From the NCBI RefSeq assembly GCF_036014215.1, contig NZ_CP107921.1, positions 7,933,501-7,997,500 of the forward strand: 64,000 nucleotides of DNA, in the 5' to 3' direction. Of the stretch, positions 38,374 through 60,576 are shown piece by piece. Within the stretch, counting starts at the first letter, position 1. Each line of letters begins with the position of its first letter. Position numbers and translations under genes: made by a program. A model generated the notes under the pieces. That model did no database searches, had not been told where the DNA came from, and saw nothing but the letters and a program-made list of their open reading frames with translations. The stretch comes from Streptomyces sp. NBC_00440 (GTDB lineage Bacteria; Actinomycetota; Actinomycetes; Streptomycetales; Streptomycetaceae).

Positions 38374-39576
38374 CTACCCTTCTTCGCTGCCCAGCAGGAG
38401 GACAGTCGTCCCGATTTCCGCGAGCCGGTCGGCCAGGTCGGGACGGAGCGTGAGCCGTGCGGTCCTCACCGCGTCGTCGATCACCGTGAGCACCGCGCCG
38501 ACGAGGAGCTTCCCCTCGGCGGTGTCGAGCCCGGGCCTGGCGTCCCCGAGGAGCCGGCCCCACAGCGCGAGGTAGTCACGCTGGACCTGACGGCTGCTCC
38601 GGCGGTACTTCTCGGGCAGCTGGTCGAGTTCAGTGAGCAGCAGGCCGATGAGGCGACTGTTCTCCAGGGCGAAGTCGATGTACGAGCGGAGCAGGGACTC
38701 CAGCGCTTCCATGGGACTGGAGGCGCCGTCCAGGGCCTGGTCCGTGCCGACCTGCCGCCGTTCGCCGCCCCGGACCACGGCTGCCACGAGCAGGTCGGTC
38801 TTGCTGGGGAAGTGCTTGTAGATGCTGGGGCCGGTGCTGCCGACCGCCTCGCCGATGTCGTCGGTGCTGACCGACTGGAAGCCGCGTTCGTCGAAGAGCC
38901 TGATCGCTTCCGTCAGCAGCTGTTCGCGGCGGGAGGCGACCTGCGTCGCGGAGCCGGCCGATGCCTGCGCCCGCCGGTCCGGCCGAGTGGTGTCGGTGGG
39001 CGAGCCCAGACGGCAGTACGCCACACTCCGGGTGATCTCGCGCATGAGCTCCTCAAGCCTGCGCCGGGAAAGGGGGATCCGCTGCCGGGAGGCACTCGAC
39101 GTGATGGCGAGAAGGGCCCAGGCGAGCAACTCGCCGTCCTCCGGGGAGAGGCCCGTACGCGCCTCCCGGACCAGAGAGGCCAGCTGGGCGGCGATCCCGT
39201 TGAGCTGCTGGCGCAGTTCCTCGCGTCGCGCGTCCGTGAGGTGACGGGCCTCGCGCTGCCAGAGCGTGGCCAGGCCGCGTCGTTCCGCACCCACGGTCGC
39301 GAGCGTCGCCAGCAGCTCGTCCGGGTCCGCCGCCTCACGCACCGTGGCTTCCAGGAGGCCGAGGCCCTTGCCCACGACCTCGGAGAGCAGTTCCCGCTTG
39401 TTGCGGAAGTGGCGGTAGAGCGCGGGGGCGGTGATGTCCACGGCCGCCGCCACGTCGGCGACGGAGACGTTGTGGAAGCCGCGCTCGCGGAACAGGTCTC
39501 CGGCCGCGGCGAGGATGAGCTCCCTGCGGTCCGGGGGCCTCCGTGCCACCACCCGCTTGATCTCCCCTGTCCGCAC
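38374..39576 (-). CDS. Tandem-TetR regulator, Mce3R-like architecture
   Basis: A 400-residue protein made of two complete TetR modules. The first helix-turn-helix lies near residues 15-65 (LILAAAGDLFRERGFHNVSVADVAAAVDITAPALYRHF); the second near 210-265 (QLLTEAIRLFDERGFQSVSTDDIGEAVGSTGPSIYKHF), each followed by a helical ligand domain. Single-chain double TetR repressors are rare; Mycobacterium tuberculosis Mce3R has this layout and size and controls lipid-degradation genes (fadE17, fadE18, echA13 and the mel2 locus). The gene is divergent from an acyl-CoA dehydrogenase operon and heads a large acyl-CoA degradation cluster, so it is the best candidate to bind the repeated 16-bp motif. The GTG at 39576 follows a GGGGG run; a TTG further upstream is less likely. 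Confidence 0.92.
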   Translation of the reverse strand: MRTGEIKRVVARRPPDRRELILAAAGDLFRERGFHNVSVADVAAAVDITAPALYRHFRNKRELLSEVVGKGLGLLEATVREAADPDELLATLATVGAERRGLATLWQREARHLTDARREELRQQLNGIAAQLASLVREARTGLSPEDGELLAWALLAITSSASRQRIPLSRRRLEELMREITRSVAYCRLGSPTDTTRPDRRAQASAGSATQVASRREQLLTEAIRLFDERGFQSVSTDDIGEAVGSTGPSIYKHFPSKTDLLVAAVVRGGERRQVGTDQALDGASSPMEALESLLRSYIDFALENSRLIGLLLTELDQLPEKYRRSSRQVQRDYLALWGRLLGDARPGLDTAEGKLLVGAVLTVIDDAVRTARLTLRPDLADRLAEIGTTVLLLGSEEG

Positions 39577-39892
39577 CGGTCGGCCCCCTTTTTGTCGGCG
39601 GCCCGGATGACCGGGCCGCAAGTCAGGCTAGTACATGCACTGCGGGCCGGGACGCTGGGCGGGCGGGCGTTCGCGCCACCCGCGGGCACCGTGGTCCCGC
39701 CCGGTCGGCACGGCCGGAACGAGGTTATCCCGAACGCGGCGATTGAAGAAGCGCAGACTAACCGGCCCCACTGAAGATGCGGGATCAGCGGCGATGGATT
39801 GCGTGCGACGTCTAGACACGATGGTTAGCGCGAATTAACTTAGTGCTCGCCCCTGTGAGATTCCTCCAGGCAGACCGAGGGGAGCGCCAGAC
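39577..39892. other. Divergent control region of the tandem-TetR gene
   Basis: A 316-base region between the regulator and the first acyl-CoA dehydrogenase gene. It contains one copy of the 16-bp motif (39824-39839) and the GGGGAG ribosome site before 39893. Nothing else was recognised. Confidence 0.55.
39824..39839. promoter_or_regulatory. 16-bp motif, site 1 (tandem-TetR / acyl-CoA dehydrogenase)
   Basis: GTTAGCGCGAATTAAC. It matches the consensus GTTAKCRNNNNTTMAC completely. It lies 54 bases before the dehydrogenase start and could control both divergent units. Confidence 0.7.
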
Positions 39893-41050
39893 GTGCGCCG
39901 AACCGTGTTCACCGAAGATCACGAAGCCTTCCGCCAGACCATTCGCACTTTCATCGACAAGGAGGTGGCACCCGGCTACCAGGAGTGGGAGCGCGCCGGC
40001 CTGGTCCCACGGGACCTCTACTTCAAGCTGGGCGAGCTCGGCGTCTTCGGCATCGGAGTCCCCGAGGAGTACGGGGGCGCCGGCCAGCGGGGACTGAAAT
40101 ACCAGGCCGTGATCCAGGAGGAGCTCGCCCGGCAGGCGGTCAGCTTCGGAGGTTCGTCCGTGCACTCCGGACTGTGCCTGCCGTATCTCCTCGCCTACGG
40201 AACGCAGGAGCAGAAACAGCGGTGGCTCCCGGGCTTCGTCTCCGGCCGGATCATGACGGCCATCGCCATGACCGAGCCCGGCGCGGGCTCCGACCTCGCA
40301 GGCATCCGCACCAGCGCCAAGCTCTCCGATGACGGCACCCACTACACGCTGAACGGCGCCAAGACCTTCATCAGCGGCGGTGTCCTGGCCGACCTGGTCC
40401 TGGTCGTCTGCCGTACCTCGCCGACCCGTGAGGACGACCGCAGGGCGGGCCTGACGATCCTGTGTGTGGACACCACGAGCGAGGGCTACACCGTCGGTCG
40501 CAAGCTGGAGAAGATCGGGTTGCGCACCAGCGACACCGCCGAACTCTCCTTCAGCGACGTCGTGGTGCCCGTCGAGAACCGTCTCGGCACGGAGGGCGAG
40601 GCATTCTCCTACCTCACCCGCAACCTGGTGCCGGAGCGGCTGGGCTGTGCGACCGCAGGTTACGCGCAGGCCTCCGCCGCGCTCGGGTTCGCCCGCGACT
40701 ACGTGCGGGAGCGCCAGGTCTTCGGCAAGCCCGTGGCGTCGTTCCAGAACACCAAGTTCGTACTCGCTGAGTGCGCCACGGAGGTCGAGGCCCTCCAGGC
40801 GATGGTCGACCGGGGTCTTGAACTGTTCGAGACGGACGAGCTGTCGGTGGCCGACGCGGCCAGGCTGAAACTGTTCAGCACCGAGGTCGCCGGCCGCGTG
40901 ATCGACAAGTGCCTCCAACTGCACGGCGGTTACGGCTACATGCTGGAGTACCCGATCGCCCGCCTGTACGCCGACACCCGGGTCTCACGGATCTACGCCG
41001 GTTCCAGCGAGGTCATGAAGACCATCATCGCCAAGGACCTCGGCCTCTGA
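39893..41050 (+). CDS. Acyl-CoA dehydrogenase
   Basis: A 385-residue FAD enzyme that introduces the alpha-beta double bond into an acyl-CoA. Family motifs are clear: AIAMTEPGAGSDLAGI, LNGAKTFISGG, the RQVFGKPVASFQNTKF segment and the C-terminal LQLHGGYGYMLEYPIARLYADTRVSRIYAG. It is 60-70% alike by eye to the second dehydrogenase at 46.8 kb and belongs to the same branch (RIYxGxxEVMK ending). The GTG at 39893 follows GGGGAG. It leads an operon with a thioesterase and an acyl-CoA ligase, with motif site 1 upstream. The chain specificity cannot be read from sequence. Confidence 0.93.
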   Translation: MRRTVFTEDHEAFRQTIRTFIDKEVAPGYQEWERAGLVPRDLYFKLGELGVFGIGVPEEYGGAGQRGLKYQAVIQEELARQAVSFGGSSVHSGLCLPYLLAYGTQEQKQRWLPGFVSGRIMTAIAMTEPGAGSDLAGIRTSAKLSDDGTHYTLNGAKTFISGGVLADLVLVVCRTSPTREDDRRAGLTILCVDTTSEGYTVGRKLEKIGLRTSDTAELSFSDVVVPVENRLGTEGEAFSYLTRNLVPERLGCATAGYAQASAALGFARDYVRERQVFGKPVASFQNTKFVLAECATEVEALQAMVDRGLELFETDELSVADAARLKLFSTEVAGRVIDKCLQLHGGYGYMLEYPIARLYADTRVSRIYAGSSEVMKTIIAKDLGL

Positions 41051-41114
41051 CACCCCGGCGCCCTGACGTGATGGGCCACCGGGCGCCCGCACCCCCCATC
41101 CTCCGGAGCACGCC

Positions 41115-42068
41115 GTGCCACAGCATCCCCTTCCCGTCACGCCGGGTACCGGTACCCGGCCGGCCCTCGACACCGATGGACCGATCCCCCAGCAGGGTGG
41201 CTCCGGACCGGCCGCCGGCCTCGGCAGCGACCTCGTCGGCTTCCTGAGCCTCGATCAGCTGGACCGCGACCTGTTCCGCGGATGGTGCCACGCGGGCCTG
41301 CCGCTGCGCGCGTTCGGCGGACAGGTCGCCGCGCAGGCACTCACCGCGGCCGGCCGCACCACGGCGGACGGCCACCATGTGCACTCCCTGCACGGCTACT
41401 TCCTGCGTGCGGGGGACACCCGGCAGCCCATCCTCTACCACGTCGACCAGCTGCGGGACGGGCGCAGCTATCTCTCCCGGCGGGTCACCGCCGTCCAGGG
41501 AGGCGTGGCCATCTTCACGCTCTCCGCGTCCTTCAAGCTCCCCGAGCGGTACGGGGACCGCCACCCGCGCATTCCCGACGCACCATTGCCCGAGGAGCTG
41601 CCCGATCCGTACGAGCCGTGGGCCGCGGGCGACCCGGAAGGCTTCGAGATGTCCCAGTGGCGCCGGGTGATGGCCATGCGGTTCGTACCGGACGAGCGGC
41701 AGCCGCCACCGGGACTCAACCAGCAACTTGTGTGGCTGAAGTCCACCGAGAAGCTGCCGGACGACCCGCTGCTGCACGTCTGCGCCCTCGCCTACTGCTC
41801 CGATCTCACCCTCGCCCCCACCGCGGCCCTCGACAGCGAGAGGCCCCGGCCGCTTCGGGACGGGCCACCACGGTTCTTCATCACCTCGCTCGACCACGCC
41901 ATGTGGTTCCACCGCCCCTTCCGGGCCGACGAGTGGATGCTGTTCGCCCAGCGCAGCCCCTCGGCCGGTGACGGGCGAGGCCTGTCACTGGGGGAGTTCT
42001 GGACACGTGAAGGAACCCTCGTGGCCTCCGTCGTCCAGGAAGCGGTGCTCCGCCCCCACCGCTCGTAA
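41115..42068 (+). CDS. tesB: Acyl-CoA thioesterase II
   Basis: A 317-residue double hot-dog enzyme. The TesB features are present: FGGQVAAQALTAAGRT, HSLHGYFLRAGDTRQPILYHVDQLRDGRSYLSRRVTA and the catalytic-region aspartate in SLDHAMWFHRPF. It releases CoA from acyl-CoA, which can relieve CoA trapping during degradation of unusual acids. The GTG at 41115 follows CGGAG. It lies 64 bases after the dehydrogenase and 31 bases before the ligase gene in one likely operon. The first 35 residues are a disordered Pro/Thr/Gly-rich extension before the domain begins. Confidence 0.92.
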   Translation: MPQHPLPVTPGTGTRPALDTDGPIPQQGGSGPAAGLGSDLVGFLSLDQLDRDLFRGWCHAGLPLRAFGGQVAAQALTAAGRTTADGHHVHSLHGYFLRAGDTRQPILYHVDQLRDGRSYLSRRVTAVQGGVAIFTLSASFKLPERYGDRHPRIPDAPLPEELPDPYEPWAAGDPEGFEMSQWRRVMAMRFVPDERQPPPGLNQQLVWLKSTEKLPDDPLLHVCALAYCSDLTLAPTAALDSERPRPLRDGPPRFFITSLDHAMWFHRPFRADEWMLFAQRSPSAGDGRGLSLGEFWTREGTLVASVVQEAVLRPHRS

Positions 42069-42099
42069 TCGCATTCACCACTCATCAAGGGAGTTCTCC

Positions 42100-43800
42100 A
42101 TGTCCGGTGCCTGGCCGATGAACATGCCCCGTGGTCTCGACTATCCACCCGTGGGTGTGGACGCGGTCCTCGCAGGTGCCGCCCGCGCCTACCCCGAGCG
42201 GGTCGCCGTGCGTGACGGCGATGAGACGCTCACCTATCCCGAGCTGTGCGAGCAGGCCCTGCGGGTGGCGGGTGGTCTGCGCGGGCGCGGTATCCGGCCC
42301 GGTGATGTCGTGGCGCTGCACATGCCCAACTCCATGTGGTTCACGGTCGCCTACTACGGAGCGCTGTGTGCCGGTGCGGCGGTCGCCCCGATCAACCCGG
42401 CCCAGCCGGCTCTCGTACTGGGCGAACAGCTCGCGGAGGTCACGGCGAAAGCCGTGATCACCAGCCCGGCGGGTGCGGGCACGGCCGTGGAGGCCACCGC
42501 CGGGGCGGCGACCTCGGTTGAGCTCGTCGTGTGCGTGCCGCCCACCGCGGCAGCTCCCGCCCGGTCGGAGCCGCGGCAGGGGCTGGTCGAACTGGCCGAG
42601 CTGCTGTCCGCGGAGCCGCTGCGGGATTACCGGGTGGACGCCGAGATGGTCGCCCACCTGCAGCTGACGGGGGGCACCACCGGCCGCGCCAAGGCGGTGC
42701 GGGTGCTGCACCGCAACATCGTCGCCAACGTGGTGCAGATGCACGGCTGGCGCTCCGCGTGCCTGCCGCACCTGGACGACGAGGGCGGCCTGCGCTTCAC
42801 CCGGATCCCCGAGGCCGTCACCGCGCACTCGCTGACACCCGGTGACTGTGTCTGCGTCGCGGTGGCACCGCTCTTCCACGGGCTCGGTCTGGTCAGTCAG
42901 AGCCTCAACGTCGCAGCCGGCGCCACGGTGGTGATTGCGGGCCGCTTCGACCCCGATGCCCTCTTCGCCGACATCGAGAGGTACGGAGTGACCCATATGG
43001 GCGGCTCCCCGGCCATGTACTACGCGATGCTGCGCAGCCCCGCCCTCACCAAGCACGATCTGTCCTCGGTCCGCCTGGTCAACTCCGGTGCGGCTCCCAT
43101 CGACACCACCGCCCTGCACACGCTGAGCGAACACTTCCCCCGCGCCTTCGTCGCACAGGGCTACGGGCTGAGCGAGGCCACCATGGGCGTCACCGGTGCC
43201 CCGCTGGCATGTGACGTCGAGACCCCGCCGGACAGTGTGGGCGTCCCGGTGTTCGACACCGAGATCCAGATCCGCGGTGCTGACGGCACCGCAGTCCTGC
43301 CGGTGGGCGAGACCGGTGAAGTGTGGGTCCGCGGCCCGGCGGTTGCCGATGGCTACCACGGCCACCCCGAGCTGACCGCACTCCAGTTCCGCGACGGATG
43401 GCTGGTCACCGGCGACATGGGACGCCTCGACGAACACGGCCACCTCTTCCTCGTCGGCCGCTCCAAGGACCTGATCATCTACAAGGGCTACAACGTGTAT
43501 CCGCAGCCGCTGGAGGAGATCCTGTGCTCCCATCCGGCCATCGCCCAGGCGGCGGTCGTCGGCACACCCAGCGAATCCGCCGGCGAGGTGCCCGTCGGTT
43601 TCGTGGTGCTGCGTCCGGACGTGGCGGAAGAGGCCGGCCGTGGCGACGAGTTCGCCGAAGAGGTGATGGCCTACGTCGCCGAGCGCGTCGCGCCGTACCA
43701 GAAGGTCCGCGCCCTCCACATCGTCGGCGCCCTTCCCCTCAGCCCCACCGGTAAAATCCTCAAGACCGAACTGCGCGAGCGCGGGAACGCCGACGACTGA
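42100..43800 (+). CDS. AMP-dependent acyl-CoA synthetase
   Basis: A 566-residue ANL-superfamily ligase that activates a carboxylic acid to its CoA thioester through an acyl-AMP. The P-loop-like motif is LQLTGGTTGRAKAVRVLHRN near residue 190, with QGYGLSEATMGV (A5), TGDMGRLDEHGHLFLVGRSKDLIIYKGYNVYP (A7-A8) and a C-terminal GKILKTELR lysine (A10). The substrate is not evident; its neighbours suggest a fatty, branched or cyclic acid. The ATG at 42100 follows AAGGGAG. It is the last gene of the site 1 operon and ends at a 17-bp hairpin. Confidence 0.93.
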   Translation: MSGAWPMNMPRGLDYPPVGVDAVLAGAARAYPERVAVRDGDETLTYPELCEQALRVAGGLRGRGIRPGDVVALHMPNSMWFTVAYYGALCAGAAVAPINPAQPALVLGEQLAEVTAKAVITSPAGAGTAVEATAGAATSVELVVCVPPTAAAPARSEPRQGLVELAELLSAEPLRDYRVDAEMVAHLQLTGGTTGRAKAVRVLHRNIVANVVQMHGWRSACLPHLDDEGGLRFTRIPEAVTAHSLTPGDCVCVAVAPLFHGLGLVSQSLNVAAGATVVIAGRFDPDALFADIERYGVTHMGGSPAMYYAMLRSPALTKHDLSSVRLVNSGAAPIDTTALHTLSEHFPRAFVAQGYGLSEATMGVTGAPLACDVETPPDSVGVPVFDTEIQIRGADGTAVLPVGETGEVWVRGPAVADGYHGHPELTALQFRDGWLVTGDMGRLDEHGHLFLVGRSKDLIIYKGYNVYPQPLEEILCSHPAIAQAAVVGTPSESAGEVPVGFVVLRPDVAEEAGRGDEFAEEVMAYVAERVAPYQKVRALHIVGALPLSPTGKILKTELRERGNADD

Positions 43801-43903: not shown

Positions 43904-45454
43904 TCAGCTCCGGTCGGCGGATTCGGCGGATTCTGACGACGTGTCGCGCAGCCGGCGCTTGAGGACCTTGCCGGCGGCCGACAGGGGCAGGGCGTCCGTG
44001 AACTCGACGGTTCCGGGGGCTTTGTAGCCGGCGATCAGCGTCTTGGCGTGCGTGCGGATCTCCCCGGCCGTCGCGCTCGCGCCGGGCTTGAGGACGATCA
44101 CGGCGTGCACCCGCTCGCCCCACCGAGGGTCCGGGACGCCTATGACGGCGCAGGAGGCGACGGCGGGGTGAGTGGCGAGTGCCTTCTCCACCTCGCCGGA
44201 GTAGACGTTCTCACCGCCCGTCACGATCACGTCCTTGAGCCGGTCGACGACGTAGACGTAACCGTCCTCGTCCATGCGGGCGGCATCGCCGGTGTGCAGC
44301 CAACCGCCGCGCAGCGCTTCCGCCGTTTCTTCGGGCTTGTTCCAGTACCCGAGCATCACGCTGTCACCGCGCATCAGGACCTCGCCGGTCTCGCCCCGGG
44401 GCAGTTCCTCGCCGTCGGGGCCGGCGATCCGGACCTCGCAGTGCGGTGTCGCGCGGCCCGCCGAGCGCAGCCGGGGGCCGCCGGCGGCATGTTCTTCCCT
44501 GCCCAGCACAGTGATCATGGCGCTCTCGGTCATCCCGTAGCCCTGCACGAAACCGCTGTGCGGGAAGGCCTTCATCGCCTGCTCCAGTACGGCCGTGGAG
44601 ATGGGCGAAGCTCCGTAGCCGACGGACCGGACGCTGTCCAGGTCGTACCGGCCGACGTCGGGGTGCTCGACCACCTGCTGGAGCATGGTGGGCACCAGGC
44701 CCATACTGGTCACCCGGTGCCGCTGCACGGCCTCCAGCACCGCGGCCGGTTCGAAGGCGGGCAGGAACACGAGGGTGCCGCCCAGGAGGTTCTGCGCGAG
44801 CCAGCCGGCGACGGCGGCGATATGGAACATCGGCGCCGAGACGAGGGTGACGCCGCCGGCTTGCGCGACGCGGTTGACCATCTGGGCACCGTAGGCGGAC
44901 GTCAGCAGCCCCCGCGCACCGATCATGACGCCTTTGGGGAACCCTGTGGTGCCGCCGGTGTACAGCAGTGCGGCCAGGCTGTCGCCGTCGGCGCGCAGAT
45001 CCGCTGCGGGGGCCGATGAGGCGATCAGGTCCTCGTAACAGTGCGTCGTGTCCGGAGCGGGTCCGTCGCCGCAGTGCACCACGGTGCGCAGTCGCGGGCA
45101 CAGCTCGCGCAGCTGGGGGACGAGCCGGGTGAAGGCGGCGTCGACGAGAAGGACCTCCGAACCGGAGTCGCGCAGCGAGTACGCGATCTCCCGCGGGCTC
45201 CAGCGGATGTTGACCGGATTGACCACGGCTCCCGCCCACCATGTGGCGAGAAACGTCTCGTGGTGGCGGTCGGAGTTCAGAGCGAGGATCGCGACCCGGT
45301 CGCCCTTGGCCACGCCGAGGCTCCGCAGCCCGCCTGCGAGCCTGGCCACGCGGTCGGCGACCTCGCGGACGGTACGGACACGACCTCCGCAGATCGTCAT
45401 GGGCAGGTCGGGGGTCTGTTGGAGCGCACGGTGCAGCGACTGCGTGAGGAACAC
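43904..45454 (-). CDS. AMP-dependent acyl-CoA synthetase (second)
   Basis: A 516-residue ANL-family ligase of the medium/long-chain type. It begins FLTQSLHRALQQTPD, has LLYTGGTTGFPKGVM near residue 165, QGYGMTESAMI and GDAARMDEDGYVYVVDRLKDVIVTGGENVYSGEVE, and ends near the A10 lysine (GKVLKRRLR). It is not closely similar to the ligase at 42.1 kb and probably takes a different acid or intermediate. The GTG at 45454 is chosen over an upstream TTG because GGTGG lies at proper distance and the family starts there. It follows the racemase gene by 73 bases on the same strand, and a degenerate motif copy lies in between. Confidence 0.92.
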   Translation of the reverse strand: MFLTQSLHRALQQTPDLPMTICGGRVRTVREVADRVARLAGGLRSLGVAKGDRVAILALNSDRHHETFLATWWAGAVVNPVNIRWSPREIAYSLRDSGSEVLLVDAAFTRLVPQLRELCPRLRTVVHCGDGPAPDTTHCYEDLIASSAPAADLRADGDSLAALLYTGGTTGFPKGVMIGARGLLTSAYGAQMVNRVAQAGGVTLVSAPMFHIAAVAGWLAQNLLGGTLVFLPAFEPAAVLEAVQRHRVTSMGLVPTMLQQVVEHPDVGRYDLDSVRSVGYGASPISTAVLEQAMKAFPHSGFVQGYGMTESAMITVLGREEHAAGGPRLRSAGRATPHCEVRIAGPDGEELPRGETGEVLMRGDSVMLGYWNKPEETAEALRGGWLHTGDAARMDEDGYVYVVDRLKDVIVTGGENVYSGEVEKALATHPAVASCAVIGVPDPRWGERVHAVIVLKPGASATAGEIRTHAKTLIAGYKAPGTVEFTDALPLSAAGKVLKRRLRDTSSESAESADRS

Positions 45455-45476
45455 GTGGACCACCAATCCGGAGCGT

Positions 45477-45492
45477 GTTGTCGATGATTCAG
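45477..45492. promoter_or_regulatory. Degenerate 16-bp motif copy before the second ligase gene
   Basis: GTTGTCGATGATTCAG differs from the consensus GTTAKCRNNNNTTMAC at two fixed positions. It lies in the 73-base gap between ligase and racemase genes, so it could give the ligase its own regulated promoter. It may be coincidence. Confidence 0.35.
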
Positions 45493-45527
45493 TTCAATGC
45501 GTTGTTCGGGGCCGGTCGCCCCGGGGC

Positions 45528-46700: not shown

Positions 46701-46807
46701 GAACGTACGTCCTTCGGGGGTGAGGAATGCCCGGAAGCCGCCCCTCCGCTGAGTGGCCGGGGGAGGGGCGACCGGAGGAGCGGCTTCGTCGGGCGACGTC
46801 GGGCCGC

Positions 46808-47965: not shown

Positions 47966-47991
47966 GCCCTTGTCCCCTGGTTCCGAAGTGG

Positions 47992-48795: not shown

Positions 48796-48812
48796 GATGT
48801 GTACGTCCTTTG

Positions 48813-50895: not shown

Positions 50896-50911
50896 GTTAG
50901 CGTGTTTTCAC
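50896..50911. promoter_or_regulatory. 16-bp motif, site 2 (thiolase operon, proximal)
   Basis: GTTAGCGTGTTTTCAC, a full match to GTTAKCRNNNNTTMAC. It lies 20 bases before the thiolase start, where a bound repressor would block initiation. Confidence 0.7.
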
Positions 50912-51075
50912 TTTTAACATTGAAACGGCTGCTGTCAAGGGGTGTTGTGTGCTGGAGGCAGGTGTTCAAGCCTTCTCTTCGCTGTTCATTCCGCATGATG
51001 AGGTCCGCCCGGATCGCGGGGCGTGCCGCGTGTCGGGTCGTTTGGGCACCCCGGTGCACGGCCCGTAAGGATCCG

Positions 51076-51091
51076 GTTATCTATCCTTCAC
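51076..51091. promoter_or_regulatory. 16-bp motif, distal copy of the thiolase operon
   Basis: GTTATCTATCCTTCAC differs from the consensus at one position (T for R). It lies 200 bases before the thiolase start, just past the end of the transporter gene. Confidence 0.5.
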
Positions 51092-51139
51092 TTCTTGCGG
51101 GGGTCTGTTCGCCGCCATCGAGCCCGGCCGAGATGCGTG

Positions 51140-52489: not shown

Positions 52490-52524
52490 GGATTCTCCCG
52501 GATTCAACGCCTGATTGGCCGGAA

Positions 52525-52540
52525 GTGAACCATCGCTAAC
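52525..52540. promoter_or_regulatory. 16-bp motif, site 3 (transporter gene)
   Basis: Read on the minus strand it is GTTAGCGATGGTTCAC, a full match to the consensus. It is 36 bases before the transporter start. Confidence 0.7.
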
Positions 52541-52596: not shown

Positions 52597-52612
52597 GTTA
52601 TCAGTGTTTCAC
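52597..52612. promoter_or_regulatory. 16-bp motif, site 4 (crotonase/SDR unit)
   Basis: GTTATCAGTGTTTCAC, a full match to the consensus. It is 57 bases from site 3, and both may be bound together. The crotonase start is 340 bases downstream. Confidence 0.65.
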
Positions 52613-52952
52613 TTAGTGCCCGCAGTCGAGCAACGTCTCGACGTTGACACCCGCTGAGGGGCTGTGGTTCTCTGCGAGCGATGGTGATCGGACGGTCATC
52701 AGGACCCGCGGACCATTCGATCCGCCACGTGTGAAGAGCAGGTGTCCTCACACGCACCCACAGACGCGCCGCTCTGCGGGCCGCCCCGGGACGTTCACGC
52801 CGCGCGACCGCGCCCTGGCCGGATCGAAAACGCCATGACCGGGCACGGCCGGCGTTCACCGGACGGTGCGATGAGCACCTGGAGCCGGGCAGCCGCAGCC
52901 GAAGACAGATGGCGTCCCGGACTGTCACGACGGTTGATTCAAGGAGAGCTCC

Positions 52953-53738
52953 ATGCAGCGCTTGAAGTTCCTCACGTACAACACCGACGGCCACGTCGCG
53001 GTCGTGAACCTCGCCCATCCGCCGGTCAACGCGGTGACGGAAACGATGTACCAGGAGATCCGGCATCTCTTCGGCAACACAGCCGAGTACCTTCCCGACG
53101 CCCGCGCCATCGTGCTCACCGGCGGTGAGAGCAAGCACTTCTGCGGTGGCAGCGACCTCAACGGATTCGCCGAACTCACCCCGGAGAACGCGCCCGAGCG
53201 GATGCGGACCGTCCGCGAGGCGTTCTGGGCGATCTACGACTGCCCCCTGCCGGTGATCGCCGCCGTGCACGGCGCGGCGCTCGGCACCGGTCTGGCCATC
53301 GCCGCCTCCTGCGACATGGTGATCGCTGCCGAAGGAGCGAAGATCGGACTGCCCGAGGTCGCAGTCGGTATGATGGGGGGCGCCAAGCACGCGTCCCGTC
53401 TGGTGCCGCCTGCCCTGGCCCGGCTGCTCCACTACACCGCTGATCCGCTGCCTGCCGAGGACTTCGTCGCTCACGGAGGCGTCCTCAAGGTCGTCCCGCG
53501 CGAGCGGTTGCTGGACGAGGCCACGGCGCTGGCTGCGCGGATGGCGCGCCACAGTCCGGTCGCGTTGGGCTTCGCCAAGCGCAGTCTGAACACGATCGAG
53601 TACATGGACCTCAAGTCGGGTTACGAGTTCGAGCAGGGACTCTCCGGCGAGCTGTCGGCCTACCCCGACGCCAAGGAAGCCGTTACTGCCTTCTTCGAGC
53701 GTCGCGAGCCGAAGTACACGGGGTGGGTGAACGATTGA
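52953..53738 (+). CDS. Enoyl-CoA hydratase/isomerase family protein
   Basis: A 261-residue crotonase-fold protein. The oxyanion-hole segments are KHFCGGSDLNGFAEL and HGAALGTGLAIAASCDM. The usual catalytic glutamates of enoyl-CoA hydratase are not clearly both present (PEVAVGMMGGAKHAS holds one), so isomerase, hydrolase or lyase chemistry on an acyl-CoA is possible. The ATG at 52953 follows AAGGAGAG. The stop codon overlaps the next start (TGATG), linking it to the SDR gene. Confidence 0.87.
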   Translation: MQRLKFLTYNTDGHVAVVNLAHPPVNAVTETMYQEIRHLFGNTAEYLPDARAIVLTGGESKHFCGGSDLNGFAELTPENAPERMRTVREAFWAIYDCPLPVIAAVHGAALGTGLAIAASCDMVIAAEGAKIGLPEVAVGMMGGAKHASRLVPPALARLLHYTADPLPAEDFVAHGGVLKVVPRERLLDEATALAARMARHSPVALGFAKRSLNTIEYMDLKSGYEFEQGLSGELSAYPDAKEAVTAFFERREPKYTGWVND

Positions 53739-54508
53739 TGACCGGTCCGGTCGACTACGCGCACGAGTTCCAGGGCAAGGCCGCCCTGATCACCGGCGGA
53801 GCCTCAGGTATCGGCCTGGCGACTGCCCGGCGTCTGGTCGCCGGTGGCGCGGCCGTCGCCCTCGCCGACTTCGACGAGGAAGGCGGCCGCAAAGCCGCTG
53901 CCGAGCTGACGGCAAGGGGAGGGCGCTCCCTGGCGATTCCGATGGACGTCGGCGACCCCGGGTCGGTACGCGTCGGAGTCGAGGAAGCCGCGGACTGCCT
54001 CGGCGGACTGCACCTGGTCGTCAACAGCGCGGGCATTACCGGGCGCAGGGAACTTCTCGGCGAGTACGCGCTGGACACATGGCACAGTGTGATCGCCACC
54101 AACCTGGACGGCGTCTTCCACTCGATGCGCTACACGCTGCCCGTCATCCTGGACTCCGGCGGCGGCGCCGTCGTCAATGTGTCCTCCATTCTGGGCATCA
54201 ACGGCCGTATCGCGTCGAGCGCGTACACCGCCGCCAAGCACGGCGTGATCGGTCTGACCAAGACCGCCGCCCTGGAATACGCGACACAGGGTGTGCGCTT
54301 CAACGCCGTGGGCCCCGGCTTCATCGAGACCCCGATGATGACCCGTGCGGGCGAGGCGGCCCGCGACCATGCGGCCGGTCTGGCACCGGTCCAGCGGGTG
54401 GGCACCGCCGATGAGGTGGCGGAGCTCATCGTCTTCCTGCTCTCCGACCGCGCGTCCTTCATCAACGGCAGCTACCACCTGGTCGACGGGGCGTACTCCG
54501 CGCGTTGA
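53738..54508 (+). CDS. Short-chain dehydrogenase/reductase
   Basis: A 256-residue SDR with cofactor motif ITGGASGIGLATAR near residue 15, NSAGITGRREL, catalytic Ser (VSSILGINGR) and YTAAKHG. The aspartate in ALADFDEEGG suggests NAD. The C terminus FINGSYHLVDGAYSAR is typical. It is translationally coupled to the crotonase gene by TGATG. Its likely role is oxidation of a hydroxyl on an acyl-CoA or ring intermediate. A decayed oxidoreductase fragment follows 40 bases later. Confidence 0.92.
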   Translation: MTGPVDYAHEFQGKAALITGGASGIGLATARRLVAGGAAVALADFDEEGGRKAAAELTARGGRSLAIPMDVGDPGSVRVGVEEAADCLGGLHLVVNSAGITGRRELLGEYALDTWHSVIATNLDGVFHSMRYTLPVILDSGGGAVVNVSSILGINGRIASSAYTAAKHGVIGLTKTAALEYATQGVRFNAVGPGFIETPMMTRAGEAARDHAAGLAPVQRVGTADEVAELIVFLLSDRASFINGSYHLVDGAYSAR

Positions 54509-54714: not shown

Positions 54715-55884
54715 TCACAACAGCTCAAGAATGGTGGCGTTGGCCATACCGCCGCCTTCACACATGGACTGCAGGCCGTAGCGGATGCCGTTGTCGCGCA
54801 TGTGGTGGACCAGGGTGGTCATGATGCGGGCCCCGGAGCCGCCGATGGGGTGGCCGATCGCCATGGCACCTCCGTTGGGGTTCATGCGCGCGTAGTCGGC
54901 CCCGGTCTCACGCAGCCAGGCGAGGGTGACCGAGGCGAAGGCTTCGTTGATCTCGAAGACGCCGATGTCGTCGAGGACCAGGCCGGACTTCTTCAGGGCT
55001 TTCGCGGTGGCCGGGATGGGGCCCTTGAGCATGGTGACGGGGTCGGTGCCGGCGATCACAGCGGTGTGGATACGGGCCATCGGCGTCCAGCCCTGCTGCT
55101 CGGCGACCTCGCTGGTGGTGATGAGCAGGGCGCCGGTGCCGTCGGAGATCTGGGAAGCGTTGCCTGCGGTGATGCTCCCGCCCTCACGGAAGGCGGGGTT
55201 GAGGCCGCCCAGCGTCTCCAGTGTGGAGCCTCGTCGCACGCCCTCGTCCGTATCGAAGACGCTGGTGGTGCCCTCGGCGTTGGTGACGCGGATGGGGGCG
55301 ATCTGATCCGTGAAGCGGCCCTCGCCGATCGCTCGGAGTGCGCGGGCGTGCGAGTCCACGCCGTGCTGGTCCATCTCGGCACGGGAGATGCCGTACTCGT
55401 CAGCGATCAACTGGGCACCCGTACCCTGGTTGAAGCGGACGCCGTTGTAGCGCTCCCACACATCAGGCCCGAAGGGCTCGCCGAAGCGGCCCTCCATACG
55501 GGCGGTTCCCAGCGGAACCGCGCTCATGATCTCGACTCCGCCGGCCACGGCCACGTCGTATTGGCCTGATATGACGCCGGCCGCCGCCTGGTGCACGGCC
55601 TGCTGCGAGGAGCCGCACTGCCGGTCGACGGTCAGTCCGGGTACGGACTCGGGCCAGCCGGCGGCCAGCACCGCGGCGCGGCCTATGCAGCCGGACTGCA
55701 TACCGACGGCTCCGGCGCAGCCCCAGATGACGTCGTCGACCAACTCCGGGTCGAGACCGGCGCGTTCGACCAGGGCGTTGAGCACGTGGGCGGAGAGTGA
55801 GGCCGAGTGCATCGTCGACAGCGAGCCGTTGCGCTTGCCTACGGCGGTGCGTACGGCATCGACGATCACTGCGTCTCGTCGCAT
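54715..55884 (-). CDS. Acetyl-CoA acetyltransferase / 3-ketoacyl-CoA thiolase
   Basis: A 389-residue classical thiolase. The nucleophile Cys is in VDRQCGSSQQAVHQAA near residue 88; His is in AIGHPIGGSGARI and the second Cys in SMCEGGGMANATILE. It performs the last step of beta-oxidation, thiolytic release of acetyl- or propionyl-CoA. This is the second thiolase in the cluster and differs from the SCP2 type at 49.7 kb, consistent with separate rounds of chain shortening. The ATG at 55884 follows AAGGAG. It is divergent from the paired dehydrogenase operon; a motif copy lies 208 bases upstream. Confidence 0.93.
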   Translation of the reverse strand: MRRDAVIVDAVRTAVGKRNGSLSTMHSASLSAHVLNALVERAGLDPELVDDVIWGCAGAVGMQSGCIGRAAVLAAGWPESVPGLTVDRQCGSSQQAVHQAAAGVISGQYDVAVAGGVEIMSAVPLGTARMEGRFGEPFGPDVWERYNGVRFNQGTGAQLIADEYGISRAEMDQHGVDSHARALRAIGEGRFTDQIAPIRVTNAEGTTSVFDTDEGVRRGSTLETLGGLNPAFREGGSITAGNASQISDGTGALLITTSEVAEQQGWTPMARIHTAVIAGTDPVTMLKGPIPATAKALKKSGLVLDDIGVFEINEAFASVTLAWLRETGADYARMNPNGGAMAIGHPIGGSGARIMTTLVHHMRDNGIRYGLQSMCEGGGMANATILELL

Positions 55885-56091: not shown

Positions 56092-56107
56092 GTTATCAAG
56101 TATTCAC
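56092..56107. promoter_or_regulatory. 16-bp motif, site 5 (thiolase gene side)
   Basis: GTTATCAAGTATTCAC, a full match to the consensus, in the divergent region 208 bases before the thiolase start. Confidence 0.7.
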
Positions 56108-56263
56108 TTTTGCGTTCAGGGGGTCTACTGTCAAGCGTGGGTCGGACGTGGATGGCAAGCGCCGACTCTGCGGTCAAGCGAGCCGTGCCACGTATGCCCG
56201 GGCTTGTGCCCGCGAGTGATCGGCGGCCCGGGAGCCCCTGAGGTGGTAGGCCTGGTTGGTCGA

Positions 56264-56279
56264 GTTATCAATAATTAAC
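56264..56279. promoter_or_regulatory. 16-bp motif, site 6 (paired dehydrogenase operon)
   Basis: GTTATCAATAATTAAC, a full match to the consensus and the most AT-rich copy. It lies 22 bases before the ATG at 56302, so the promoter must overlap it and the leader must be very short. Confidence 0.7.
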
Positions 56280-56301
56280 TTTTGACCGTGAGGTCCCTAC
56301 G

Positions 56302-57555
56302 ATGAGCCGGTACCCCGCCACGAATCAGGAGTCGCGTGACGTGACCGCGAGAGCCTGGCCCGCGGAATTCCGCAGCCATGTCAGGGAATTCATCCACACC
56401 GCGCTGCCCCCGGCCCTGGCCGGGGTGACCGGCTTCGCCGAGCGCGCTCGCGCCTACCGCGCAGCCCTGCACCGTGCGGGTCTGGCGGGCCTGGGCATCC
56501 CCGCCGAATTCGGCGGCCAGGGACTCGGCGAGGCCGAGGAACGCATCTTCGCTGAGGAGTCGGCAGGGAGCGTCCCCGGCGAGGACCGGGTATTCCAGGT
56601 GGGCGCACGCCTGGTGGTGCCCAGCCTCATCGGCCGAGGCGCCCACGACCTGGCCCGGGAGTTCGGACCGGGACTGCTGTCCGGCGAGATGATCTGCTGC
56701 CAGTTGTTCTCCGAGCCCGAGGCGGGCTCGGACCTTGCCGGAGTACGTACCCGCGCGGCGCGCACGAAGGACGGCGACTGGCTGGTCACCGGACAGAAGG
56801 TGTGGACCTCCTATGCCCAGTACGCGGGACTCGGCCTGCTCCTGGCGCGTACCGACGCCGAAGCGCCGAAACACCATGGCCTGTCGATGTTCCTCGTCGA
56901 CATGGACGCCCCTGGCGTGGAGGTGCGGCCGCTCCGGCAGATGTCCGGTGACTGCGAGTTCAACGAGGTCTTCTTCGACGAGGTGCGGGTGCCCGCCGAC
57001 CGGCTCGTCGGGCGTCCCGGGGAAGGCTGGCCGGCCGCCGTCGCGGTGCTCGGCCACGAGCGCGTGGGAGTCTCGCGCGGAGACGACAGCTCGCCACGCC
57101 GCCCCATCCCGTACGAAAGGCTGCTCGAACTCGCCCGGCACGGCGGGCGCGACAGCGATCCCGCGGTCCGCGAACGGCTGCTCGACGCCTTCCTCGGCCA
57201 GCGGACCGCAGCCCTGGTCAGTCGCCGGATCGCCGCACGTACCCTGGCAGGGGCCGAGCCAGGACCCGAGACATCGGTAGGAAAGCTGCTGCGCACCGCC
57301 AACGGCCTGCACGCTGCCCGTCTCGCCTCCGACGTCGCCCTCGGCGCGGGCGCGACCTGGGCGGGCGACGACACCCTGGCCGCGGACGCCGCCTTCTGGG
57401 TGCTGGACGCTCCCGGGATGGCGATGGGCGGCGGTACCGACGAGATCCAGCGCAACACCATCGGCGAGCGGGTGCTCGGTCTGCCGCGTGAGCATTCGGT
57501 CGAGCGGGGCGTCCCGTTCCGCGACCTCGTCCGTACCCGGGAGGGGCAGCAGTGA
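56302..57555 (+). CDS. Acyl-CoA dehydrogenase, first member of a heteromeric-type pair
   Basis: A 417-residue FAD enzyme of the FadE17/ChsE-like branch. Motifs: LFSEPEAGSDLAGVRTRA, VTGQKVWTSYAQYA, VRVPADRLVGRPGEGW and the C-terminal GGGTDEIQRNTIGERVLGLPRE. Such proteins pair with a second, shorter dehydrogenase to form alpha2-beta2 enzymes that take bulky substrates such as steroid side-chain CoA esters. The partner gene follows with a four-base overlap. The start at 56302 is the ATG after GTGAGG. The operon continues with a luciferase-like oxidoreductase and a crotonase. Confidence 0.92.
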   Translation: MSRYPATNQESRDVTARAWPAEFRSHVREFIHTALPPALAGVTGFAERARAYRAALHRAGLAGLGIPAEFGGQGLGEAEERIFAEESAGSVPGEDRVFQVGARLVVPSLIGRGAHDLAREFGPGLLSGEMICCQLFSEPEAGSDLAGVRTRAARTKDGDWLVTGQKVWTSYAQYAGLGLLLARTDAEAPKHHGLSMFLVDMDAPGVEVRPLRQMSGDCEFNEVFFDEVRVPADRLVGRPGEGWPAAVAVLGHERVGVSRGDDSSPRRPIPYERLLELARHGGRDSDPAVRERLLDAFLGQRTAALVSRRIAARTLAGAEPGPETSVGKLLRTANGLHAARLASDVALGAGATWAGDDTLAADAAFWVLDAPGMAMGGGTDEIQRNTIGERVLGLPREHSVERGVPFRDLVRTREGQQ

Positions 57556-58697
57556 TTCCGTATCCGCTGAGTGAACTGACAGACGAGCGCGCCGAGTTGG
57601 CCACAACTGTCCGTAAACTTTTCGAGCGTCACTGCGACGAGCGGCAGGTGCGCGCCCGGATGGAACGGCGTGAGGGCTTCGACCCGGCAACGCACCGCGA
57701 ACTCGCGGAGATGATCGGGGTGTTCGCGCTTCAGGTGCCCGAGGAGTACGGCGGAGCGGGCTTCGGGCCCGGTGATCTGCTGCCGGTCTTCGAGGAGGCC
57801 GGGCGAGCGCTGTACGGCGGCCCTCTGCTGTCCAGCACGACCGCCGCCGCGGCGCTGACGGCCATCGGGGACCCACAGGTCTGCGCCCGGCTCCTGCCGG
57901 ACATCGCAGCGGGCCGCACGGTGGCGACCCTCGCGGGGATGGACGGAGCTCCCTCCCCGATAGCCGCGGCCCGCGACGCTGCCGGCTCCTGGACGCTGAC
58001 GGGCGCCGCGGAGCCGGTGCTGGACGGAGCCGACGCGGACCTGCTGCTGGTCCCGGCCCGCACGGGGGACGAGGTCGGGCTGTTCGCCGTCGCCACCGAC
58101 GGCTTGGCGCGTACTCCGCTGCAAGGCCTGGACATGACCCGACGTCAGGCCGTGGTGATGCTCTCGGGCACCTCCGCCGAGCAGGTCGCAGCCGGCCCCG
58201 CCGCAGAGGCCGCATTGCGTGCGGCCCTCGACCACGCGGCCCTCGCAGTGGCCGCCGAGTGCCTGGGTGCGGCCCGTCGTTGTCTGGAGGATGCGGTGGC
58301 CTACGCCCTGACCCGGTACCAGTTCAGCCGGCCGATCGGCGGATTTCAGGCGGTCAAGCACCGGCTCGCCTCCCTGTGGGCCCGGACGGAGGCAGCGGGC
58401 GTGGTGCTCCGCTCCGCGGTCGCAGCGCTCGACACTGCCGGTCGTCCCGAACCCCTGGACAGCGCACACGCCTTCATCGCCTGCGTCGACGCCCTCGACG
58501 GGTGCGCCGAAGGCACGATTCGGGTGCATGGTGGCATCGGGTTCACCTGGGAGCACTCCGCGCACCTCTACTTCCGGCGGGCTCGCGCCGCGCAGACCCT
58601 GCTGGGTCCACTGTCCGCACATCGGGCCCGCGTCGCGCGGCTCGCCGGACTCGACGCCGCGTCCGCGGCTCACCCACAAGGAGAACCCGCACGATGA
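57552..58697 (+). CDS. Acyl-CoA dehydrogenase, second member of the pair
   Basis: A 381-residue protein. It has the FAD and fold signatures VPEEYGGAGFGPGDLLPVFEEAG, RYQFSRPIGGFQAVKH and the C-terminal VHGGIGFTWEHSAHLYFRRA. The ending is that of the non-classical FadE subunits found in heteromeric dehydrogenases; the middle is shortened and weakly conserved. The GTG start overlaps the stop codon of the first dehydrogenase (GTGA), and its own stop overlaps the next gene (ATGA). The pairing recalls fadE17-fadE18 of Mycobacterium tuberculosis. Confidence 0.9.
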   Translation: MIPYPLSELTDERAELATTVRKLFERHCDERQVRARMERREGFDPATHRELAEMIGVFALQVPEEYGGAGFGPGDLLPVFEEAGRALYGGPLLSSTTAAAALTAIGDPQVCARLLPDIAAGRTVATLAGMDGAPSPIAAARDAAGSWTLTGAAEPVLDGADADLLLVPARTGDEVGLFAVATDGLARTPLQGLDMTRRQAVVMLSGTSAEQVAAGPAAEAALRAALDHAALAVAAECLGAARRCLEDAVAYALTRYQFSRPIGGFQAVKHRLASLWARTEAAGVVLRSAVAALDTAGRPEPLDSAHAFIACVDALDGCAEGTIRVHGGIGFTWEHSAHLYFRRARAAQTLLGPLSAHRARVARLAGLDAASAAHPQGEPAR

Positions 58698-59749
58698 CCG
58701 TCACTCCGCACACCCCGGGACCGCTGAAGCTGGACACCACCGCGATCGGCGCTCCGTCAGAGGTGATCGAGGCAGCGGTGGCCGCCGAGCGGCGTGGGGT
58801 CGACCGGATCCTCATGTCGGAGACCGCCCACGAGCCGTTCCAGCCCCTCGCCGTCGCCGCCTCCCGCACCTCGGCCATCGAGGTCGGCACCGGCGTGGCC
58901 ATCGCCTTCGCCCGCACCCCGATGACTCTGGCCTCCAGCGCATGGACGCTGCAGCAGCTCTCCCGCGGCCGCGCCGTGATCGGCCTGGGCTCGCAGATCA
59001 AGGCGCACATCACGCGCCGCTTCGCGATGCCGTGGTCCAGCCCGGCGGCCCGCATGAAGGAGTTCGTCAGCGCGACCCGCACGATCTGGAACAGCTGGCA
59101 GACCGGCGAAAAGCTGCAGTTCCGCGGCGAGTTCTACACGCACACACTGATGAATCCGCTGTTCGACCCGGGCCCGCTGGAACAGGGCGAGCCGCTCGTA
59201 CTCATCGCGGCTGTCGGTCCACGGATGGCGGCCACGGCGGGTGCGGTCGGCGACGGTGTGATCTGCCACCCCTTCAGCACAGTGCCGTACATCACCGAGC
59301 AGCTCGCTCCCGGCGTGCTGGAGGCCCGTGCCGAGGCCGCGGCCGATGGAGCACCCTGGACCACGCGGCCCTTCGAGATCACCGGCAGCGTCCTCACCGT
59401 GACCGGCCGCACCGAGGAGGAGTACGGGCACTCCCTCGCGGGCATTCGCGAGCGCATCGCCTTCTACGGCTCCACGCCGGCGTACCGGCCCGTGCTGGAG
59501 CACCACGGCTGGGGCGCGCTTCAGGAAGAACTGCACACGCTGTCGTTGCAGGGCCGCTGGAAGGAGATGGGCCAGCTCATCGACGCCGACGTCCTGAACG
59601 CCTTCGCCGTGGTCGCCGAGACTCCGGCCGATGCAGGCCGGCTCGTCCGTGAGCGCTACACCGGTGTGTACCACCGGGTGTCGATTTCGCTCGGTGCCGA
59701 ATCCGACCCGGCACTCGCGCTGGACATCCTCGACGGAATCCGGCGCTGA
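58694..59749 (+). CDS. Luciferase-like (LLM) F420-dependent oxidoreductase, TIGR03617 type
   Basis: A 351-residue TIM-barrel oxidoreductase. Features: GVDRILMSETAHEPFQPLAVAA, the strand EVGTGVAIAFARTPMTLA, SRGRAVIGLGSQIKAHI and FRGEFYTHTLM. These match the luciferase-like F420-dependent subfamily TIGR03617, seen in actinobacterial lipid and sterol degradation loci. It may reduce or oxidise a CoA-bound ring or enone intermediate. In M. tuberculosis a luciferase-like monooxygenase (Rv1936) stands next to fadE17-fadE18 and echA13, the same set as here. The ATG overlaps the stop of the previous gene. Confidence 0.9.
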   Translation: MTVTPHTPGPLKLDTTAIGAPSEVIEAAVAAERRGVDRILMSETAHEPFQPLAVAASRTSAIEVGTGVAIAFARTPMTLASSAWTLQQLSRGRAVIGLGSQIKAHITRRFAMPWSSPAARMKEFVSATRTIWNSWQTGEKLQFRGEFYTHTLMNPLFDPGPLEQGEPLVLIAAVGPRMAATAGAVGDGVICHPFSTVPYITEQLAPGVLEARAEAAADGAPWTTRPFEITGSVLTVTGRTEEEYGHSLAGIRERIAFYGSTPAYRPVLEHHGWGALQEELHTLSLQGRWKEMGQLIDADVLNAFAVVAETPADAGRLVRERYTGVYHRVSISLGAESDPALALDILDGIRR

Positions 59750-59781
59750 CCGACCACCTCTCCCGGGAAGGGAAGTACGCC

Positions 59782-60576
59782 ATGGGCCCAACCGTGCTTT
59801 ACGAAGTCGAGGGCGCTGTCGCCACCGTCACGATCAACCGGCCGCAGCGCCGCAACGCGGTCAGCATGCGGGTCTTCGAGGAGCTGCGCGTCGCGTTGGA
59901 GCGTGCGGCGGGCGATGCGGCCGTGCGGGCACTGGTACTCACCGGTGCCGGCGACGACTTCTGTGTCGGCGCCGACCTGACCGGAGCTCCGGAGAGTCGG
60001 GTGCTGACGGGCGAGGGCCGGGAGGCGGACGAGCAGCGACTCGTACAGGTGGCGGGCGCGGTGCGCCTGCTGCGGGAGTGGGACAAGCCGTCCGTCGCCG
60101 TGATCCGCGGCGGCTGCGCCGGTGCCGGGATGTCGCTCGCCCTGGCCTGCGATCTGCGGTACGCGGCCGACGACGCGGTGTTCAACACCGCCTTCCTCAC
60201 GGTCGGGCTCACCGGTGACCTGGGCATCGGCTGGCTGCTCACCCAGGCCGTCGGCCCGGCCAGGGCCCGTGAACTGATGCTGCTCCCGGAAAAACTCACG
60301 TGCTCACAAGCGCTGTCCGTGGGTCTGGTGACCGCGGCCGTCGCAGCCGATGAGCTGGCCGGCGCAGCGGGCTCCGTGGCGGAGCGGCTGGCTGCGGCGG
60401 CCCCGCTCGCGGTCGCCGGTGTCCGGCGGAACCTGGACGACGCGCTGAGGCTCCCGTTGGACGGCTACCTGCCCCGCGAGGCACGGAGGATCGCTCACGC
60501 GGCGTACTCCGAGGACGCGAAGGAGGCCCGCGCCGCCTTCTTGGAGAAACGTGCTCCGGTGTTCACCGGCCAGTGA
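59782..60576 (+). CDS. Enoyl-CoA hydratase family protein (EchA type)
   Basis: A 264-residue crotonase. The opening VEGAVATVTINRPQRRNAVSM, oxyanion-hole segments DDFCVGADLTGAPE and RGGCAGAGMSLALACDL, and the ending FLEKRAPVFTGQ are typical. The segment AFLTVGLTGDLGIGW keeps no glutamate at one usual catalytic position (Asp instead), so isomerase activity is possible. The ATG at 59782 follows GGGAAGGGAAG. It is the last gene of the four-gene operon with two dehydrogenases and the luciferase-like enzyme; it converges with the DUF2332 gene. Confidence 0.9.
   Translation: MGPTVLYEVEGAVATVTINRPQRRNAVSMRVFEELRVALERAAGDAAVRALVLTGAGDDFCVGADLTGAPESRVLTGEGREADEQRLVQVAGAVRLLREWDKPSVAVIRGGCAGAGMSLALACDLRYAADDAVFNTAFLTVGLTGDLGIGWLLTQAVGPARARELMLLPEKLTCSQALSVGLVTAAVAADELAGAAGSVAERLAAAAPLAVAGVRRNLDDALRLPLDGYLPREARRIAHAAYSEDAKEARAAFLEKRAPVFTGQ

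Follow-up and report, generated by a model that had tools for sequence, protein, structure and literature searches.

A conserved, asymmetric putative operator of a Mce3R-type double TetR regulator in a Streptomyces acyl-CoA degradation cluster

A cluster of acyl-CoA degradation genes occupies positions 38,374 to 60,576 of a 64-kb stretch of the Streptomyces sp. NBC_00440 genome (the window, analysed at its full length), and a 16-bp motif, GTTAKCRNNNNTTMAC, marks nearly every promoter region of this cluster. Which protein reads the motif, and how does it sit on the promoters? Our comparisons indicate that the motif is very probably the operator of a regulator encoded in the cluster itself, a double TetR of the Mce3R type (tetR2), which would cover the -10 regions of promoters in an acyl-CoA degradation regulon.

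Exact matches to GTTAKCRNNNNTTMAC were found at the six window positions listed in an earlier note on this DNA (39824, 50896, 52525 on the minus strand, 52597, 56092 and 56264), and none in 100 dinucleotide shuffles (expected number 0.00). Looser copies by themselves say little, because 12 matches with up to two mismatches compare with 5.85 expected on average by chance. The whole genome (8.68 Mb) contained seven exact copies, six of them inside a single 16.5-kb stretch. The earlier statement that no copy lies outside the cluster thus holds within the window but not for the genome, and the genome scan that the note had proposed placed six of seven exact copies in the cluster and one, at C1:2746260, next to a single-domain accR-type TetR gene, with a one-mismatch partner 28 bp further. 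A one-mismatch copy was also present at C1:5902379, 8 bp ahead of a gene judged by reading to encode an enoyl-CoA hydratase.

When the window was scanned with a matrix trained on 30 sites from related genomes (described below), the eight positions already reported were its top eight matches, with scores of 35.0, 30.8, 30.5, 28.6, 28.1, 23.4, 18.5 and 15.1; the ninth match scored 9.2. Both reported near-copies, at 51076 (one mismatch) and 45477 (two mismatches), exist. The second is doubtful: it appears weak and decayed in the near-identical strain L030, where its score drops from 15.1 to 7.4, and for this reason it was not counted as an operator. A one-mismatch copy at 53727 (minus strand) had been overlooked; it is inside a coding sequence and absent from the best 16 matrix matches in the window, and was rejected as an operator. 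The location of all copies between genes holds if the transporter gene starts at 52489, but not if it starts at 52576, the start of the longest open reading frame (ORF). The regulator gene and the putative operators are as follows:

38374..39621, minus strand: tetR2, 415-aa double-TetR protein, putative Mce3R-type repressor; true start uncertain
39824..39841, plus strand: operator 1, GTTAGCGCGAATTAACTT, exact copy in the fadE1/tetR2 divergent region; best matrix match of the window (35.0)
45477..45492, plus strand: doubtful two-mismatch copy upstream of fadD2 (matrix score 15.1)
50896..50913, plus strand: operator 2, exact core, reversed relative to the thiolase operon
51076..51093, plus strand: one-mismatch copy (matrix score 18.5) ahead of the thiolase operon, probably its second operator
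52523..52540, minus strand: operator 3, exact core, upstream of the MFS (major facilitator superfamily) transporter gene
52597..52614, plus strand: operator 4, exact copy (score 28.1), upstream of the crotonase/SDR (short-chain dehydrogenase/reductase) unit
56092..56109, plus strand: operator 5, exact core, at the second thiolase gene
56264..56281, plus strand: operator 6, exact copy (score 30.8), immediately upstream of the paired acyl-CoA dehydrogenase genes

Conservation in relatives, which the earlier note had named as a check, was observed at orthologous promoters in five congeneric genomes and also in Streptacidiphilus and Rhodococcus. Reading the DNA of 11 relatives yielded 31 sites in eight of them (the five congeneric genomes, one Streptacidiphilus and two Rhodococcus); the other three (L038, L040 and L041) had no site at the filter of this survey. 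Twenty-eight of the 31 sites were outside longest-ORF calls and three overlapped just the 5' end of one. Among the five congeneric genomes, a site was present upstream of the orthologs of fadE1 (5/5), fadE2 or maoC (5/5), the MFS gene (5/5) and the fadE/thiolase pair (3/5), and all five MFS promoters carried GTTAGGGGTGATTCACTT or a close variant. Matrix training excluded a single site, in L036, whose core is identical to that of an L035 site; the remaining 30 had been preselected by GYTA-N7-TTMAC and score, so the GYTA and TTMAC positions give no independent weight. It is hardly credible that the copies are leftover repeats of promoter duplication with no present function: some of the controlled genes are paralogous, as with the several fadE genes and thiolases, and some of the letters downstream are common to 39824 and 52597, but the core positions are conserved in Streptomyces, Streptacidiphilus and Rhodococcus while the flanks differ, and exact spacing is held to different putative promoters.

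As judged from these sites, the motif is longer than earlier described, extending to GYTAKNNNNNWTTMACTT, and is asymmetric. Each of the seven strong window copies has TT directly after it, letters that were unused when the copies were first found, and in no case do the mirror bases AA stand before the copy; five of the seven have a TTCAC arm. In the pooled set of 37 sites (7 from the window and 30 from relatives), position 5 was G or T in 35 and its mirror position was A in all 37; because the mirror letter and outer letters of the pooled sites were fixed by the site filter, the unbiased evidence for asymmetry is provided by the window flanks and by expectation maximization (EM). EM, supplied with no pattern, was applied to the region between -300 and +60 relative to tetR2 starts. 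It returned TtAGnnaggAtTCACTta from 12 loci of clade A of the tandem-TetR tree (log-likelihood 94.4, compared with 51.5 for shuffled DNA) and GCTACCcnGGATTAACTT from 13 mainly Kitasatospora-type loci, group B (200.1 compared with 57.2), both of them lopsided; the control used a single mononucleotide shuffle of each group and fewer seeds than were used on the real DNA, and group B was partly picked from loci with motif matches. On more distant groups of 7 and 26 loci, EM did not recover the motif and gave other strings, and we therefore do not extend the operator to these groups. A palindromic dimer operator was rejected, as arms and flanks differ consistently. The inverted ends had previously been read as a dimeric TetR operator; an operator of the TetR type is supported, but a lopsided one, which fits the expectation for a single chain carrying two different helix-turn-helix (HTH) units. 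A previously proposed rule of two variants (GCG with G, TCA with T) describes the six window copies and breaks down in relatives, which carry other combinations such as GTTATCG, GTTATTG, GTTAGGG and GTTATGG.

The occurrence of the extended motif follows that of the regulator. In 246 congeneric genomes, 25 matches to GYTAKNNNNNWTTMACTT were clustered, three to five per genome, in six genomes (G000, G076, G089, G185, G211 and G229), and six further genomes had a single match; the reversed pattern matched a single time in each of 17 genomes and nowhere more than once. A protein search with the tandem TetR gave matches at E ≤ 1e-40 in 29 of the 246 genomes, and only the same six fell below 1e-100 (2.9e-127 or better; next genome, 1.4e-68). 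The sites seen before the pattern was designed came from the window, from L031-L036 and from the Kitasatospora-type clade, so that four of the six genomes (G000, G185, G211 and G229) informed it, whereas G076 and G089 were unseen and both positive (G185, G211 and G229 were taken to be L031, L033 and L032, and each was counted once; the genus of the G genomes was deduced from these and from L030). At 80 loci centred on tandem-TetR genes, mostly with 10-kb flanks, GTTAKCRNNNNTTMAC had 6 exact matches and 40 with at most one mismatch, compared with 0 and 14 for the reversed control. The genome of NBC_00440 itself contained five exact matches to GYTAKNNNNNWTTMACTT, all in the cluster, and four with one mismatch, two of them outside it; at up to two mismatches the count (93) was below that of the control (122). 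Co-occurrence in six of 246 genomes, conserved sites and a matrix trained outside the window all support the earlier suggestion of a local regulon with the tandem TetR as its likely binder.

The tetR2 protein contains two TetR_N domains in one chain, with HTHs at about residues 45-72 (M1) and 244-271 (M2) of its 411-aa form, and has relatives in Streptomyces, Kitasatospora, Rhodococcus, Nocardia and others. With its AlphaFold2 model (pLDDT 89.3, pTM 0.86), the best structure found by Foldseek was DNA-bound Mce3R (9b7y), matched over the whole chain (E 2.1e-21, TMq 0.81, 33% identity), and phmmer aligned the two proteins over their full length (5.4e-53). PMC11667970 describes Mce3R of Mycobacterium tuberculosis as acting through one M1-M2 chain on a nonpalindromic operator; the protein further dimerises and contacts DNA through Arg53 and Lys262, there are two 25-bp sites 53 bp apart, and the targets include lipid-metabolism genes. 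In an alignment read by eye, Arg53 (M1) and Lys262 (M2) correspond to R66 and K270 of tetR2, of which K270 is invariant and R66 nearly so among 28 sequences. Judged by the model, tetR2 is a Mce3R-type double TetR with the M1-M2 pseudo-dimer fold. The likeness comprises two TetR units per chain, the full-length match, the key DNA-contact residues and, by prediction for tetR2, a nonpalindromic operator and lipid-metabolism targets. The two systems differ in that Mce3R has yrbE/mce as its divergent neighbour, which is not the case for tetR2, where the fadE1 operon takes this place and a putative operator is located in the divergent region. They also differ, in a comparison of size and layout, in that Mce3R has two 25-bp sites 53 bp apart, whereas the putative tetR2 operator spans about 18 bp and recurs at many promoters. 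Double TetRs as a kind of protein are not new, since a prediction cited in PMC11667970 counts 204 in actinomycetes. KstR2, a single-domain TetR whose PDB title names it as regulating cholesterol metabolism, is a weak sequence and fold relative of tetR2.

Several loci showed further variation in the regulator gene. In L037 (Streptomyces sp. NBC_01446) the double-TetR gene (9950-11008) is split into two ORF pieces, and an operator-like site (score 31.3) persists at 9800, just upstream of the broken gene. Multiple double-TetR genes were seen in L039 (two), L041 (two) and G089 (four matches). L040 has the tree label Cyanobacteriota and the title Rhodococcus sp. IEGM 1409, probably because of a label mix-up.

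The earlier note knew of no described regulon with this motif, but related symmetric operators were already published: a review gives GTTAA-N6-TTAAC for AccR, with echA genes among the AccR targets, and BkaR is described with a core of GTTA-N-T-N4-A-N-TAAC, bound by a dimer. Judged by its letters, the symmetric AccR/BkaR operator is the nearest relative of the motif. The AccR/PccD/BkaR proteins (SACE_7040 family) and the present system have in common a 16-bp span, a GTTA outer arm and acyl-CoA gene targets, whereas the former are single-domain proteins on symmetric GTTA-N8-TAAC sites and the latter has a fused pair, a right arm TTMACTT and a left arm GYTAK. Among NCBIfam models, SACE_7040 also matched tetR2 best, through the second half of the protein (207 of 250 bits, below the equivalog cut-off), and the AccR-type protein of the same genome passes this cut-off (273.7 versus 250 bits).

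Could this single-domain AccR-type TetR (C1:2.746 Mb) be the protein that binds the sites, making the cluster part of an AccR regulon? The exact copy of GTTAKCRNNNNTTMAC at its locus and the similarity of the published AccR motif speak for it, as do the second half of tetR2, which is 39% identical to this protein over 158 residues, and the copy at C1:5902379, whose enoyl-CoA hydratase-like neighbour would fit the echA targets of AccR. We examined 14 accR-like loci (that of NBC_00440 and L127-L139; candidate accR genes), each of which had two GTTA-N8-TAAC sites. None of these 28 sites had a TCAC arm, in a search pattern that demanded TA[AG]C, and one had a trailing TT, as against five of seven with TTCAC and seven of seven with TT in the window; a separate search for TCAC in the same loci gave two matches, both elsewhere in the loci. 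Moreover, clustered GYTAKNNNNNWTTMACTT matches are restricted to genomes with a close tandem TetR, whereas accR-like matches are widespread. AccR control of the cluster is thus unlikely, and AccR may cross-bind at the TTAAC sites 39824 and 56264. The operator attributed here to tetR2 looks like an AccR-type operator that turned lopsided along with its fused regulator.

How the motif is placed on promoters was analysed with 36 distinct sites, seven of them from the window. On the far side, an opposite-strand TTGACA (at most one mismatch) was found 19 bp beyond ACTT at 12 sites, with every other spacing occurring at no more than two. On the near side, a TTGACA-like hexamer started 11 bp before the site in 10 of 36, the next-best spacing having two. 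If as many as two mismatches are tolerated on the near side, class F comprises 13 sites, with a TGGACA-like hexamer, N17 and TAACTT within the right arm; the 12 sites of class R have the reversed arrangement, TTGACA-N17-NNAAGT. The operator would thus overlap a putative core promoter at 25 of 36 sites, in two geometries. Base 14 (M) was A in 13/13 class F and C in 12/12 class R sites (Fisher 1.9e-7, which overstates the significance because orthologous promoters recur; we count roughly five promoters as independent in each class). Window sites assigned to a class are 39824 (F, fadE1) and 50896 and 56092 (R, the two thiolase promoters), with the following putative elements:

39813..39818, plus strand: putative -35 TAGACA for fadE1, 17 bp from the -10 TAACTT (39836-39841) in the right arm of operator 1
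50933..50938, minus strand: TTGACA, putative -35 for the thiolase operon; its partner AAAAGT (50910-50915) lies at a 17-bp spacing and overlaps the right arm of operator 2
56129..56134, minus strand: putative TTGACA for the second thiolase gene, 17 bp from AAAAGT (56106-56111) at operator 5

At 25 of 36 sites the motif overlaps a putative -10 element and keeps a constant distance from a TTGACA- or TGGACA-like hexamer, which could also mean that the motif is itself a core-promoter element for a sigma factor and not an operator. We consider this highly unlikely: both orientations are used, with the -35 on either side, the conserved left arm would be superfluous for a promoter, and the occurrence of the motif tracks the TetR gene and its M1 helix.

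Several observations weigh against a tetR2 operator placed over -10 regions. Eleven of the 36 sites (nine with C and two with A at base 14) belong to neither class, among them four of the seven window sites (51076, 52525, 52597 and 56264, the last with no clear -35). A generic promoter scan gave no site at its threshold, and the promoter claims therefore rest on fixed spacing. In the available DNA, L040 and L039 (a 6.1-kb contig) had no strong matrix site, L041 had none, and the single one of L038 was about 3 kb from tetR2. The left arm is weak (ATGAGG) at the sites nearest tetR2 in the Rhodococcus loci L035 and L036, and sites from related genomes are non-independent events. A covariance model (R1) found three matches in the whole genome, all in the cluster, with a best E of 0.16 and 150 of 613 candidates scored, and is too weak for ranking genome sites.

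The two clades with recovered motifs offer a view of how each half-site may be read. The right arm ATTMACTT is common to clades A and B, and the left arm changes from GTTA to GCTA. Recognition-helix identity between the clades was 0.98 for M1 and 0.61 for M2 (10 clade-A rows, without L037 and L039, and 11 clade-B rows). We had first guessed that M2 reads the conserved right arm and reversed this assignment since the M1 helix is the better conserved. WTTMACTT was found within 300 bp upstream of the gene at 22 of 26 loci with an [AT]PA[LV]Y M1 helix and at 3 of 53 with other helices, a test weakened by the relatedness of the 79 loci; the reversed control gave 6/26 and 3/53, the three odd loci being the same with both patterns. 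The helix, arm and 79-locus comparisons used the tree clade of 11 for B; L037 and L051 were excluded from the tree (in-frame stops), and L051 also from the EM, arm and 79-locus tests. These data tentatively suggest a half-site code, which we regard as quite possible though short of probable: across actinomycete double TetRs, the [AT]PA[LV]Y helix of M1 would specify WTTMACTT on the right, the left arm would be specified by M2, the half-sites would evolve separately, the right arm would coincide with the -10, and base 14 would be set by promoter direction.

The motif, its conservation and asymmetry, its co-occurrence with tetR2, the Mce3R fit and the promoter spacing come from sequence; from these we infer binding, repression and an inducer. 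One tetR2 chain would set its two unlike HTHs on two unlike arms (left GTTAG/T, right TTMACTT), and the bound protein would cover the -10 region of the promoters. It would thereby repress the degradation operons and probably its own gene, until an acyl-CoA or acid from the pathway binds tetR2 and the DNA is released.

Experimental knowledge of double-TetR repressors, in the accessible part of the open-access literature, concerns one protein, Mce3R, and one well-mapped promoter region. Among the matches listed in our open-access search there was no recognisable paper on a Streptomyces or Rhodococcus double-TetR operator, and the grammar of what appears to be a conserved operator of a Mce3R-type regulon was not found described in the literature searched. 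Beyond the seven window sites, this putative regulon supplies 4-7 listed sites in each of five congeneric soil-bacterial genomes. With both of its half-sites and both HTHs varying in nature, it allows tests of the way in which a fused repressor recognises an asymmetric site and of the signal to which that repressor responds. A predicted regulator and target list can also be assigned to an acyl-CoA degradation cluster common to Streptomyces and Rhodococcus.

The genes under the putative operators are:

39893..43800, plus strand: fadE1 - tesB thioesterase - fadD1 ligase operon
43904..50876, minus strand: seven-gene operon from 50876, encoding an SCP-x-type thiolase, a MaoC pair, an SDR, FadE2, an alpha-methylacyl-CoA racemase and FadD2
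51140..52489, minus strand: MFS transporter (PF07690)
52953..54508, plus strand: crotonase (PF00378) - SDR (by reading the translation) unit
54715..55884, minus strand: FadA-type thiolase (PF00108, PF02803)
56302..60576, plus strand: operon of an acyl-CoA dehydrogenase pair, an F420-dependent LLM oxidoreductase and a crotonase (the last by reading the translation)

In the seven-gene operon, the racemase matched 1x74 at 7.9e-112, and the acyl-CoA dehydrogenase FadE2 matched 2pg0 best (3.8e-97), followed by mitochondrial long-chain acyl-CoA dehydrogenase (LCAD, 8w0t, 3.2e-91). A set of racemase, LCAD-like dehydrogenase, MaoC pair, SDR and SCP-x thiolase resembles the peroxisomal breakdown of 2-methyl-branched acyl-CoAs, and the gene set suggests such acyl-CoAs as the substrate of the cluster.

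A further gene (485-532 codons) is preceded by an operator in five congeneric genomes (sites at G185 928214, G089 862990, G229 130462, G076 7676309 and G211 39761). In G185 it encodes an aldehyde dehydrogenase (L216:17242-18840); such a gene was not seen in the window cluster, and the best homolog in the genome of NBC_00440 (65%) is 5.9 Mb away. Following the SDR gene, a 34-codon frame at 54549-54653 of the window (MQIKAVRFHAFGSAPEVVTVPEPEPGPGQ...) looks by eye like the truncated start of a quinone/zinc oxidoreductase. Finally, a palindrome-like GTTATTGATGACTAAC at G000:C1:4883956 (L184) is located between another TetR-like gene and an MFS-like gene, both named from their translations, and is perhaps another TetR operator.

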